Assembly (NCBI RefSeq): GCF_009834875.1
Contig: NZ_WVHT01000009.1
Span: 1-64,000 of the forward strand
DNA from: Hufsiella arboris
GTDB lineage: Bacteria; Bacteroidota; Bacteroidia; Sphingobacteriales; Sphingobacteriaceae
DNA: 64,000 nucleotides
Reading direction: 5' to 3'
Shown here: positions 7,218 through 10,411 of the stretch, piece by piece
How the letters are laid out: each line of letters starts with the position of its first letter
How positions within the stretch are numbered: the stretch's first letter is position 1
Notes under the pieces: generated by a model
Told to the model about the DNA's origin: nothing
The model's input: only the letters and a program-made list of their open reading frames with translations
Databases searched by the model: none
Made by a program: the position numbers and the translations under genes

Positions 7218-7285
7218 CGTTTGAAATGGCGATTAATTGTATATTTATCGAATGGTTGCCGCGGCGGCGGCCTATTAATGCAACA

Positions 7286-8311
7286 ATGAGTCAGAATAAA
7301 GAAATTACAATTTACGATATAGCCAAAAGTCTTAACATCTCCCCTGCAACGGTAAGCCGCGGCCTGAAAGATCATCCCGCCATCAATAAAGACACGAAAA
7401 AGAAAATTATTGATGCCGCTCAAAAGATGGGGTATCGCCATAATACGTTCGCCAGTAACCTCCGCCGGCAGCGCACTAATATCCTGGGGGTAATTGTACC
7501 GCGGCTTAACAGCAGTTTTACATCGGATGTGATTGCAGGTATGGAAAAAACCGCTAATGAAGCTGGTTTTAACCTGGTAATCAGCCAGTCGCTCGAAACC
7601 ATGAAGAAAGAGGTTGCCAATGCTAACACGATGTTTAACAATCGGGTGGATGGCTTGCTGGTGTCCCTGGCCTACGATACAACCGACATTCAACACCTGG
7701 AAAACTTTATCAACAAAAATATTCCTGTCATCTTTTTCGATCGTGTTTATGACCATGAAAAGTGCCCGAGCATTAAGATCGACAATTATAAAGCCGCCTA
7801 CGAAATAACTGCACATCTCATCAGTCAGGGTTGTAAAAAGATAGCGCACATTACGGGTAACCAGCTGCGGAACGTTTACCAGGATCGCTTCAACGGTTAT
7901 AAACAGGCGTTAGCTGATCACGCTATCCCGCTTAACGAAAAGCACGTATTCATTAACGACCTTTCCGGGAAAGCGGGCGCCGAAACCGCTGAGAAAATTT
8001 TATATATGAATGACCGCCCGGATGGCGTTTTTTCTGCCAATGATACCTGCGCTATTAATTGCATGCAAGTGCTGATGAAAAATGGCATTTCAATCCCACA
8101 GGACATTGCCTTTGCGGGTTTCAATAACGATCCAACATCTACCATTATTGAGCCCAACCTAACGTCAGTAAATTACAAAGGTTTTGAAATGGGAGAAGTA
8201 GCCGCCAGGATTTTGATCGGTCATTTAAACAACAATTACGATTTGCAGCTGACCCATACGCTGATGCTGAGGCATGAGTTGATTATGAGGGACTCGTCGT
8301 TGAGGAAGTAG
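7286..8311 (+). CDS. LacI-family transcriptional regulator, probably of hexuronate use
   Basis: ATG 7286 gives a 341-residue protein that begins MSQNKEITIYDIAKSLNISP, directly the LacI HTH (IYDIAKSLNISPATVSRGL, then the hinge helix NLRRQRTNILGVIVP). An in-frame ATG at 7226 would add 20 residues not seen in the family and overlap the operator region. The periplasmic-binding-protein-like effector domain follows (FFDRVYDHE, NGYKQAL, PDGVFSANDTCA, IAFAGFNNDP). Divergence from uxuA and the operator between them suggest it represses uxuA and itself, releasing on an uronate-derived ligand; the ligand is inferred from context only. Confidence 0.93.
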   Translation: MSQNKEITIYDIAKSLNISPATVSRGLKDHPAINKDTKKKIIDAAQKMGYRHNTFASNLRRQRTNILGVIVPRLNSSFTSDVIAGMEKTANEAGFNLVISQSLETMKKEVANANTMFNNRVDGLLVSLAYDTTDIQHLENFINKNIPVIFFDRVYDHEKCPSIKIDNYKAAYEITAHLISQGCKKIAHITGNQLRNVYQDRFNGYKQALADHAIPLNEKHVFINDLSGKAGAETAEKILYMNDRPDGVFSANDTCAINCMQVLMKNGISIPQDIAFAGFNNDPTSTIIEPNLTSVNYKGFEMGEVAARILIGHLNNNYDLQLTHTLMLRHELIMRDSSLRK

Positions 8312-8520: not shown

Positions 8521-9663
8521 TTACAACAGCAACGTATCTATCCGGTGCGCCAGGACAATATTCCGGGTATCCGACCAGCTGAAAACAGTAAAATGCCCAT
8601 CCTGCGAGGCGACAAGAGCTATTGCGTCATGCTGATCGTGAATGAACTGCGCCGCCGCAAGGTGCCTGGTACCACCGTTTTGCGCGGGATGCAATTGCTT
8701 TTCTTCGTTTCCGACGATAGGTTCCGTAACGATCATCCGTTCAACCCGCGAGCCCCGTTCCGACCTTCCGATCTTCGCGCCGAACGCCAGCAGTTCATGT
8801 AATTCGGTGACGACGGTCGCTCCATCTACCGCGGTCAAACCCGCGAGATGTTCGATCTGCTTATTAAGCAATCCCTGCCACTGGCTTTGACTGCGCTCCG
8901 TTTTATCTTTCCGCAGCAAACCCGACAAACCGAAGAATGTGGGTTCGACGGCGTATTGAACAGGGTGAATAATCGATTCTTTCCAAACGTCCGTTGCGGC
9001 CGGGACGACAAGCAAGATGCCGCCGCGCTGGTGATTGCGCATGGATACCGCAAGCTGAATGAGCACGTTTACACTATCGTTAAAGCAGGTTGGATTACTC
9101 AAGCCTAGCAAAGATTTGACGATGGCTGGCGAGTCAGGCAGGTTGGCGCTTTTTTCATTGATAACCTTTACCTCATCCCCTTTCAGTACCAGCACGTTGG
9201 TAAATTTCCCGAAGCCATACAGCCTGCGGTGCTTAATCACGATCAATCCCGGTTCTGAAACATCCAGCACGAAACAGAAATTCGGTATCTGCAAAGTTGT
9301 GCCCCATATGCACAGTTCGCCATTCTCGATCCAAACGCCTAAATGTATACCAGGACGCTCAACCCCTGGCGCGACTTTCGTTAGTATAGAGGGACTTAAT
9401 GGCAGGGACTTTTCAAATACGAGCGGCTCTCCTGCCTGGGATGGCGGCAGGTAAGCAATAGAAATACGGGGCGAATGGCCTTCCTCTTTTCTCAAACTCG
9501 CCCAGAAAGCGGCATCGATGATGGACTCCGCTACTTTCGCGTCGGGAACCGGAGCAAGGTCTTTTTGTCCAGCCCGGCCTGCTTCATCAATATGACACGA
9601 AAAATGCTTTTCAACGATTTCGGCTACCGTCCGGCCTGTTTCATAAGTGGATTTATAAACCAT
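8521..9663 (-). CDS. Diadenylate-cyclase-like protein with DACNV-type sensor region
   Basis: The C-terminal third of this 380-residue protein aligns by eye with the DisA_N/CdaA diadenylate cyclase fold: RGGILLVVP, then TAVDGATVVTELHELLAFG with the catalytic DGA motif at D280-A282, then GGTRHLAAA at 331-339 and AIALVASQDGHFTVFSW. In active enzymes the second motif is RHR; here it is R333-H334-L335, so one phosphate-contacting Arg is lost. The N-terminal 200 residues match what I recall as the probable sensor domain DACNV. It may make c-di-AMP or a related nucleotide, or only bind one. No membrane helix or signal peptide is seen. The gene is 68 bases after a DUF4202 gene on the same strand. Confidence 0.7.
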   Translation of the reverse strand: MVYKSTYETGRTVAEIVEKHFSCHIDEAGRAGQKDLAPVPDAKVAESIIDAAFWASLRKEEGHSPRISIAYLPPSQAGEPLVFEKSLPLSPSILTKVAPGVERPGIHLGVWIENGELCIWGTTLQIPNFCFVLDVSEPGLIVIKHRRLYGFGKFTNVLVLKGDEVKVINEKSANLPDSPAIVKSLLGLSNPTCFNDSVNVLIQLAVSMRNHQRGGILLVVPAATDVWKESIIHPVQYAVEPTFFGLSGLLRKDKTERSQSQWQGLLNKQIEHLAGLTAVDGATVVTELHELLAFGAKIGRSERGSRVERMIVTEPIVGNEEKQLHPAQNGGTRHLAAAQFIHDQHDAIALVASQDGHFTVFSWSDTRNIVLAHRIDTLLL

Positions 9664-9731: not shown

Positions 9732-10310
9732 TCAAGCCAGCGCCTGTTTGATAAGAGCCAAGGCTTTGTCGCTATAACTCAGCTGAAGCGCCGCGTTCCT
9801 ACCTTCTTCACTCATTTTCTTCCATGTTTTACGAACGATATTAATCAGCTTTTCATCGTCGTGCTTTTTAATGAAATCCTCGAACTGAAACTCGAGAAAT
9901 ACCAGGCATAAAGCGTTCTCGATAGTTTGCACTTCCGGGTCGAGTTTAATACGCTGCTTGAGGATAATCGGCTGTACGTGATCGATCATTTCCTGTCCGT
10001 AGCCAGCCAATTTCATCAGCTCTGATGCTTTCGCGGCGTGGAATTTGGCCAGGTCGCTGCGCCAGTTCAGGTAACCGGTTTTTCCAGGCGGATAGGTTTC
10101 CCGTTTTATCTCCCATCGGCCGATATGCTGACTGCGCGATGCGAGAAGCAATTCCTCAGCAGCGTCGGGATCAAGCTTTAACACCCATTCGTATAATTTG
10201 ATCGCGTAAAAATATTCTGCCGGATAAACTTCGCCGCCAAAATGCAGCGTTTCGGGATCCTGCCGGTTGTACCCGTCGAATAAGGTGAAGGCTTTTTGTA
10301 ACTCGTCCAT
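9732..10310 (-). CDS. DUF4202 family protein
   Basis: The ATG at 10310 gives 192 residues starting MDELQKAFTLFDGYN; an ORF extension of 25 codons upstream is encoded by low-complexity repeat DNA and is unlikely to be translated. Conserved DUF4202-like blocks are visible: RQDPETLHFGGEVYPAEYFYA, RSQHIGRWEIKRETYP, GYLNWRSDLAKFHA and ENALCLVFLEFQ. The family is widespread and cytoplasmic with no established function; the His/Asp pattern hints at metal binding (inference). It is probably cotranscribed with the downstream diadenylate-cyclase-like gene. Confidence 0.75.
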   Translation of the reverse strand: MDELQKAFTLFDGYNRQDPETLHFGGEVYPAEYFYAIKLYEWVLKLDPDAAEELLLASRSQHIGRWEIKRETYPPGKTGYLNWRSDLAKFHAAKASELMKLAGYGQEMIDHVQPIILKQRIKLDPEVQTIENALCLVFLEFQFEDFIKKHDDEKLINIVRKTWKKMSEEGRNAALQLSYSDKALALIKQALA

Positions 10311-10340
10311 AAGTATCGTTGAAGCAGTAAAGTTAAAATT

Positions 10341-10411
10341 CATAGTTGATGGTTCATAGTTGACAGTTGATAGTTCATGGCTCATATTTAATAGTCAAAG
10401 CCATAGTTGAT
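10341..10411. repeat. Low-complexity spacer of CATAGTTGAT/TTCATAGT words
   Basis: The words CATAGTTGAT, GGTTCATAG, TTGACAGTTGATAG and TTCATGGCTCAT repeat imperfectly for about 70 bases immediately upstream of the DUF4202 start. The same kind of sequence occurs in the 8.4-8.5 kb spacer. Confidence 0.6.

Follow-up and report, generated by a model that had tools for sequence, protein, structure and literature searches.

The window, by which we mean the whole 64,000-nucleotide stretch of DNA analysed here, encodes a two-domain protein that combines a putative sensor domain, DACNV, with a C-terminal diadenylate cyclase (DAC) fold. The second Arg of the RHR motif has been replaced in this protein and in every relative read. 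The residues reported to hold ATP are mostly kept, and the protein is therefore possibly still a working, sensor-controlled signal maker. We give roughly an even chance to the reading that the DAC is gated by the sensor, has kept its use of ATP, and probably produces c-di-AMP alongside the CdaA that the genome also encodes. The c-di-AMP literature that was found centres on CdaA, DisA, CdaS, and their kin, and the DACNV-DAC protein is a second protein with the DAC fold. If active, it would give these Bacteroidota a second way, under sensor control, of feeding the c-di-AMP pool and would show that the RHR motif of the textbooks can do without its second Arg; if inactive, it would represent a widespread DAC-derived receptor.

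The two halves of the protein

The gene lies on the minus strand at 8521-9663, as an open reading frame with an ATG start and a product of 380 amino acids, and it is assigned to type A of its family on the basis of the frame, Pfam, and 150 distinct orthologues. Its N-terminal half (residues 1-172; 9148-9663, minus strand) contains the DACNV domain (PF21751) at residues 35-123 (9295-9561, minus strand), which scores 113.3 bits against a cut-off of 27 (E 6e-33). The family is already named: Pfam describes DACNV as a "probable sensor domain", and the NCBI product name is "putative sensor domain DACNV-containing protein". A sensing role for this half is putative and follows from the Pfam name. DACN- domains were reportedly named by Burroughs et al. 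in 2015; within the library searched, no paper names DACNV, and Pedobacter was linked with c-di-AMP in one paper, on bacterial STING. In the sequence-only reading, the N-terminal half was held to be of neither the DisA nor the CdaA type, which is correct at the level of sequence, the family there being DACNV. This domain occupies the place of the N-terminal region of CdaA.

The C-terminal domain (residues about 177-380; 8524-9135, minus strand) is missed by conventional searches. The Pfam DAC family PF02457 matches residues 328-357 below threshold (17.4 bits against a cut-off of 27), and a relative from clade C (see below) with complete motifs likewise falls under this cut-off, at 24.9 bits. 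Sequences of solved structures gave no match to the 380-residue protein at E <= 1, NCBIfam returned a chance-level SmpB match and nothing else, and the PADLOC defence systems gave no match at E 1. Viral contigs, phage records, and viral structures (the last at E 0.001) contained no relative that would point to a virus or phage origin.

Structure comparison places the domain firmly. An AlphaFold model built from 44 orthologues reached a mean pLDDT of 89.2 and a pTM of 0.86. When it was compared with solved structures by Foldseek, all of the 50 best matches listed were DAC proteins by title or entry (CdaA/DacA, CdaM, and DisA). With VIA-align, the best match was DisA of Mycobacterium tuberculosis, which aligned within model range 177-377 with Z 14.8 and an rmsd of 2.2 over 132 residues; rows 1-40 were all DAC proteins with Z from 14.8 to 11.6, and the row after these had Z 3.3. 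One of the rows, 2fb5, is titled as a membrane-spanning protein and is identified as CdaS in a published passage (PMC8573169). A structural match to the N-terminal domain of DisA had been set beforehand as a test of the DAC proposal, and the match obtained is strong.

Profile comparison leads to the same family. A deep profile of 173 rows, comprising the 150 type-A proteins together with clades B and C, matched the profile of 31 CdaA proteins with E 9.3e-7 and a probability of 91%, aligning DGA with DGA, GTRHL with GLRHR, and SQD with SEE. In a column-shuffle control, none of 50 shuffles scored as high (49.7 against at most 22.1). A shallower profile of 44 rows matched CdaA weakly (E 0.033, probability 1.5%), as did the C-terminal half alone from the shallower profile (E 0.017). 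The model has DGA between helix 260-276 and strand 282-286, with RH opening helix 332-343 and SQDG between strands 348-352 and 358-364; according to the relevant part of a review (PMC7288161), elements of such kinds form the walls of the ATP cavity in Listeria CdaA. No sign was found that these residues lie far apart: their secondary-structure placement in the model, together with the profile alignment, assigns them to elements predicted to line the ATP pocket. Judged by comparison of the predicted structure and of the profiles, the C-terminal half has a genuine DAC fold, and the earlier description of a divergent DAC-like protein is borne out by both matches.

Relative to a canonical DAC, the protein has the fold and the DGA motif and lacks a PF02457 match over the cut-off, a full RHR, and (V/I)SEE. 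It resembles the N-terminal domain of DisA (PDB 9y9y and 3c1y) in fold (Z 14.8 and 13.8), DGA, and RH, but differs from DisA in carrying the DAC half at the C-terminus instead of the N-terminus and in lacking both the DisA tail and the second Arg. CdaA/DacA proteins share the fold, with the motifs in register; however, the CdaA of the window's bacterial family have HDGA and GLRHRA (31/31) and a recognisable SEET (29/31), where the window protein has VDGA, GTRHLA, and SQDG. Likewise, the resemblance to other DACNV proteins comprises an N-terminal domain far over the Pfam cut-off followed by a DAC-fold half, with the differences set out below. The protein is probably a soluble, two-domain signalling protein, in our reading.

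The predicted ATP pocket and the replaced arginine

The conservation of the pocket was assessed in 150 distinct type-A orthologues, one of which does not cover the RH, 335, and SQDG sites, leaving 149 readable there. Within the DGA motif (residues 280-282; 8818-8826, minus strand), D280 and G281 are present in 150/150 and A282 in 148/150, with Val in the other 2. R333 and H334, which belong to GGTRHLAAA (residues 330-338, including L335) and to GTRHL (residues 331-335; 8659-8673, minus strand), the counterpart of GxRHR, are found in all 149. SQDG (residues 353-356; 8596-8607, minus strand), which the profile alignment places in register with the metal/phosphate-binding SEET(G) of CdaA, also occurs in all 149. 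The two motifs originally claimed at 280-282 and at R333/H334 are therefore where they were said to be, and their near-total conservation puts them beyond chance.

These residues can be set against an active site described for Listeria CdaA. In the part of the review that treats it, the site is formed by the side chains of L31, D71, T102, R103, H104, S122, and E124 and the main chains of L88, G101, and E123 (PMC7288161). Counterparts of seven of these ten contacts (D280, G331, T332, R333, H334, S353, and D355) are invariant or nearly so: in 44 aligned orthologues, D280, G331, R333, H334, S353, and D355 (as Asp for E124) do not vary, and T332 is Thr or Ser. For this contact set, which was picked after the alignment was seen, six of seven counterparts are invariant, compared with 49 of 380 columns overall (hypergeometric p 2e-5). 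When the loose counterpart of L31 is included, which may be L, I, A, T, or S, the figure is six of eight (p 8e-5), or p 1.4e-4 when the comparison is limited to the DAC half. An invariant Gln stands where CdaA has E123, and L88 falls outside the mapping. The adenine-side GALI motif is kept loosely. The metal/phosphate motif (V/I)SEE is replaced by SQDG with the carboxylate kept as Asp, and the metal ligand would therefore be Asp for Glu. As far as the aligned residues can tell, the ATP pocket looks maintained.

The last residue of the RHR motif, reported initially as Leu, is indeed L335 (codon 8659-8661, minus strand). Across the 149 readable orthologues, position 335 is L in 135, F in 6, M in 4, I in 3, and T in 1, and Arg in none. 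Loci from named genomes, the best 80 of at least 537, gave L 75, F 2, I 2, and T 1, so that 80/80 lack the Arg; these loci overlap with the 150 and were found by patterns that exclude position 335. The second Arg is kept in 31/31 CdaA of the window's family and therefore has some role.

What this role may be is addressed in part by published work. Changing RHR as a block kills activity, according to passages from three sources (PMC3328451, PMC4568413, PMC13022847). In Leptospira CdaA, Ala in place of the DGA Asp abolishes activity, as does Ala in place of R203 in GxRHRxA (PMC12974146); from its numbering, R203 looks like the first Arg of RHR. The passages cited here describe no mutant of the second Arg alone. 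In DisA-type enzymes the whole motif is said, in the passages concerned, to touch c-di-AMP or ATP, the residue being left unspecified (PMC3328451, PMC3900455), and the ligand contacts named in the corresponding passage on Staphylococcus aureus DacA are D176, G177, and the Thr preceding RHR (PMC6368335). Furthermore, the second Arg is absent from the ten ATP/metal contacts listed in the review for one structure of Listeria CdaA (PMC7288161).

The earlier phrase "lost active-site Arg" consequently stands in part. The replacement is real; the loss of an ATP-contacting Arg in one gene is not upheld, as the position is unlisted among those Listeria contacts and the change is fixed across relatives. 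In the alignments, the replacement is fixed in all relatives read and is no decay of a single copy. It may reflect altered local packing or an altered dimer contact. The suggestions that the protein works weakly or handles another nucleotide are not favoured by the residue comparison.

Type A is one of three clades of DACNV proteins. It carries RH-Leu/Phe/Met/Ile/Thr in place of RHR, whereas clade B has an altered DGA and clade C has both motifs complete. Leaving out four pieces of two split genes, clade B (13 full-length rows) has VDGV, VDGL, or IDGL for DGA, RHR in 11/13, and SQDG in 12/13; clade C (10 full-length rows) has VDGA, GTRHRAA, and SQDG in 10/10. Type A is not alone in varying at the last residue of RHR, which is Q or C in the remaining two clade-B proteins (RHQ and RHC, one each; L072 and L259). 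A maximum-likelihood tree was built from 66 rows: 35 of the 150 type A, 13 B, 10 C, and 8 of the 31 CdaA. A, B, C, and CdaA each lie on one side of a branch, with supports of 97/86, 100/99, 99/99, and 100/100, respectively. The root of this tree is not fixed, and the simplest reading is that the second Arg was probably lost once, at the base of clade A.

A proposed sensor-gated cyclase and its alternatives

The genome of the window encodes a canonical CdaA elsewhere (G000:C1:15829-16182), the gene that the sequence-only reading had proposed to look for, and a 7TM-HD protein of the PgpH type (PF07698). Therefore, c-di-AMP is probably both made and degraded there. A DAC match scoring above the cut-off was obtained in 58/61 of the genomes checked in the window's family. 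G008, G031, and G048 gave none, and one of them, G031, which is 92% complete, carries DACNV.

In the mechanism that we propose, the N-terminal DACNV domain would sense a cue and gate the C-terminal DAC domain. The latter would bind ATP and a metal ion at a pocket equivalent to that of CdaA and DisA, with D280 on the ribose side, G331-T332-R333-H334 where helix 332-343 begins, and S353 and D355 at the phosphates and the metal. Two DAC domains would face each other so that two ATP could be joined, most likely to c-di-AMP. The second Arg would have been swapped, nearly always for a hydrophobic residue and probably once, at the base of the clade. The comparisons establish the fold, the register of the motifs, the conservation of the pocket, and the fixation of the replacement in the relatives read; ATP binding, catalysis, the identity of the product, the sensing role, and the reason for the Arg change are what we infer for the protein.

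The main alternative, possible if less likely, is a receptor without catalytic activity, in which the DAC fold would bind either ATP or c-di-AMP supplied by CdaA, with the DACNV half relaying the bound state to a partner. Such a protein would account for a pocket that is strongly constrained and yet lacks, in every member read, a residue kept in 31/31 CdaA, and a CdaA is already present in the genome. However, D280 is invariant in 150/150, which a pure binder would not require, and catalysis by Leptospira CdaA depends on the equivalent residue (PMC12974146). Moreover, Pfam found no output domain, and there is no conserved partner gene beside type A.

A separate possibility, which we consider distinctly doubtful, concerns the origin of the sensor half: DACNV may be a degenerate DAC that has shed the RHR helix, so that each chain would be a tandem of pseudo-cyclase and cyclase. 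In such a tandem, the dead DACNV would dock on the living DAC within one chain, ligand sensing by DACNV would determine if a pair of living DAC domains could come face to face, and the replacement of the second Arg would have adapted the contact between the domains. Modelled alone, the N-terminal half gives a confident alpha/beta structure (pLDDT 91.6), and its order of helices and strands fits, in our reading, a DAC without the RHR helix. In VIA-align, the top 36 rows for this model are all DAC proteins (Z 7.3-6.0 over 105-110 residues, followed by Z 3.6), which as members of one family count as one observation, at a level near the Z of 7-8 that the tool warns is common as a best value. The best Foldseek match is also a DAC, but with E 0.3. 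Sequence comparison gave no sign of an internal duplication: a profile comparison of the two halves scored no better than column shuffles, 51/60 of which were as high, and with a deeper alignment 32/50 shuffles were as high. Since Z values of 7-8 are commonplace, the rows form one family, and sequence lends no support, we treat a DAC-like DACNV as conjecture.

It is improbable, in our estimate, that the protein is a working cyclase that forms a different product (a linear or mixed dinucleotide) or uses a different substrate (ADP), enabled by the changes to RH-Leu and SQDG. Two motif segments do differ fixedly from CdaA, and the adenine-side GALI motif is relaxed, as would suit this idea; on the other hand, SQDG is common to clade C, in which DGA and RHR are complete, and the ATP contacts listed for the reviewed Listeria structure do not include the changed Arg (PMC7288161). 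Finally, that the motifs match by chance and the protein is no DAC at all is hardly credible, as the low PF02457 score and the missing sequence match among solved structures are outweighed by a structure comparison that identifies DAC and by a shuffle-controlled profile comparison that does so too and also aligns the motifs in register.

Distribution and neighbouring genes

DACNV proteins are concentrated in some families and are not general in Bacteroidota. They were found in 99/151 genomes sampled from the window's family and in 124/150 genomes of another family (f9), which is probably Hymenobacteraceae because the tree groups its proteins with those of Rufibacter and Pontibacter. By comparison, a phylum-wide search found DACNV in 12/395 genomes (11 over the cut-off) and a class-wide search in 16/395. 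The named carriers, taken from the best 80 of at least 537 loci, include Pedobacter, Rufibacter, Pontibacter, Dyadobacter, Chitinophaga, and Arcticibacter. In the tree, type-A proteins of the window's family are interspersed among proteins from Hymenobacteraceae and Spirosomataceae (e.g., L038_A, L086_A, and L048_A); several inner branches are weak, and the pattern suggests that genes have been exchanged across families of Bacteroidota. Another type-A gene, with 61% identity to that of the window, occurs, among the best 80 of at least 537 loci, in a genome labelled Acidobacteria bacterium isolate MAG52 (L119), through either a binning error or transfer.

The gene directly upstream in the window, 68 bp away on the same strand, encodes a DUF4202 protein (PF13875, 228 bits; 9732-10385, minus strand), and on the other side a LacI-family regulator (7226-8311, plus strand) converges on the DACNV-DAC gene. 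DUF4202 is present in 17/60 relatives, and a literature search found no paper on it. Among the genomes compared, from which two of the 17 carriers (G545 and G546) were left out, it directly adjoins DACNV in the window's genome only; the distance is 5.5 kb in G006 and about 23 kb in G030, and elsewhere the two genes lie on different contigs or far apart. DUF4202 was rejected as a partner because the adjacency is not conserved, in agreement with the initial remark that this neighbour gives no clue.

A constant partner gene was likewise sought beside type A in 30 stretches, namely the window and 29 relatives, with reading frames overlapping the gene set aside. None was found, as no cluster of neighbours exceeded 7/30. 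The widest cluster, response-regulator-like, reached 7/30 stretches, followed by short-chain-dehydrogenase-like, ABC-ATPase-like, and 907-residue protein clusters at 4/30 each, with the others at three or fewer; cluster names were given by reading.

Several observations were made around clade-C genes. On a Hymenobacter monticola plasmid (L264:1-3527, NZ_CP094535.1; also L217), a clade-C gene with VDGA, GTRHRAA, and SQDG stands 68 bp behind a gene annotated as a patatin-like phospholipase on the same strand, an arrangement that suggested a CBASS-like pair. This candidate was dropped: relatives of the patatin were found neither in the other 24 clade B/C stretches nor in 41 type A/B stretches (the first 11 B stretches being common to both sets), and its N-terminus looks, in our reading, like a secretion signal. 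A search of 390 genomes with the plasmid protein P0002 gave three weak matches. Two other clade-C genes (L257:4860-6198 and L262:4211-5440) are each split into two adjacent reading frames, by decay or by assembly error. In three stretches (L251:3173-6160, L252:3882-6854, and L257:3246-6198), the clade-C gene, split in one of them, directly follows a response-regulator gene with a PglZ domain according to Pfam, a combination known from PorX.
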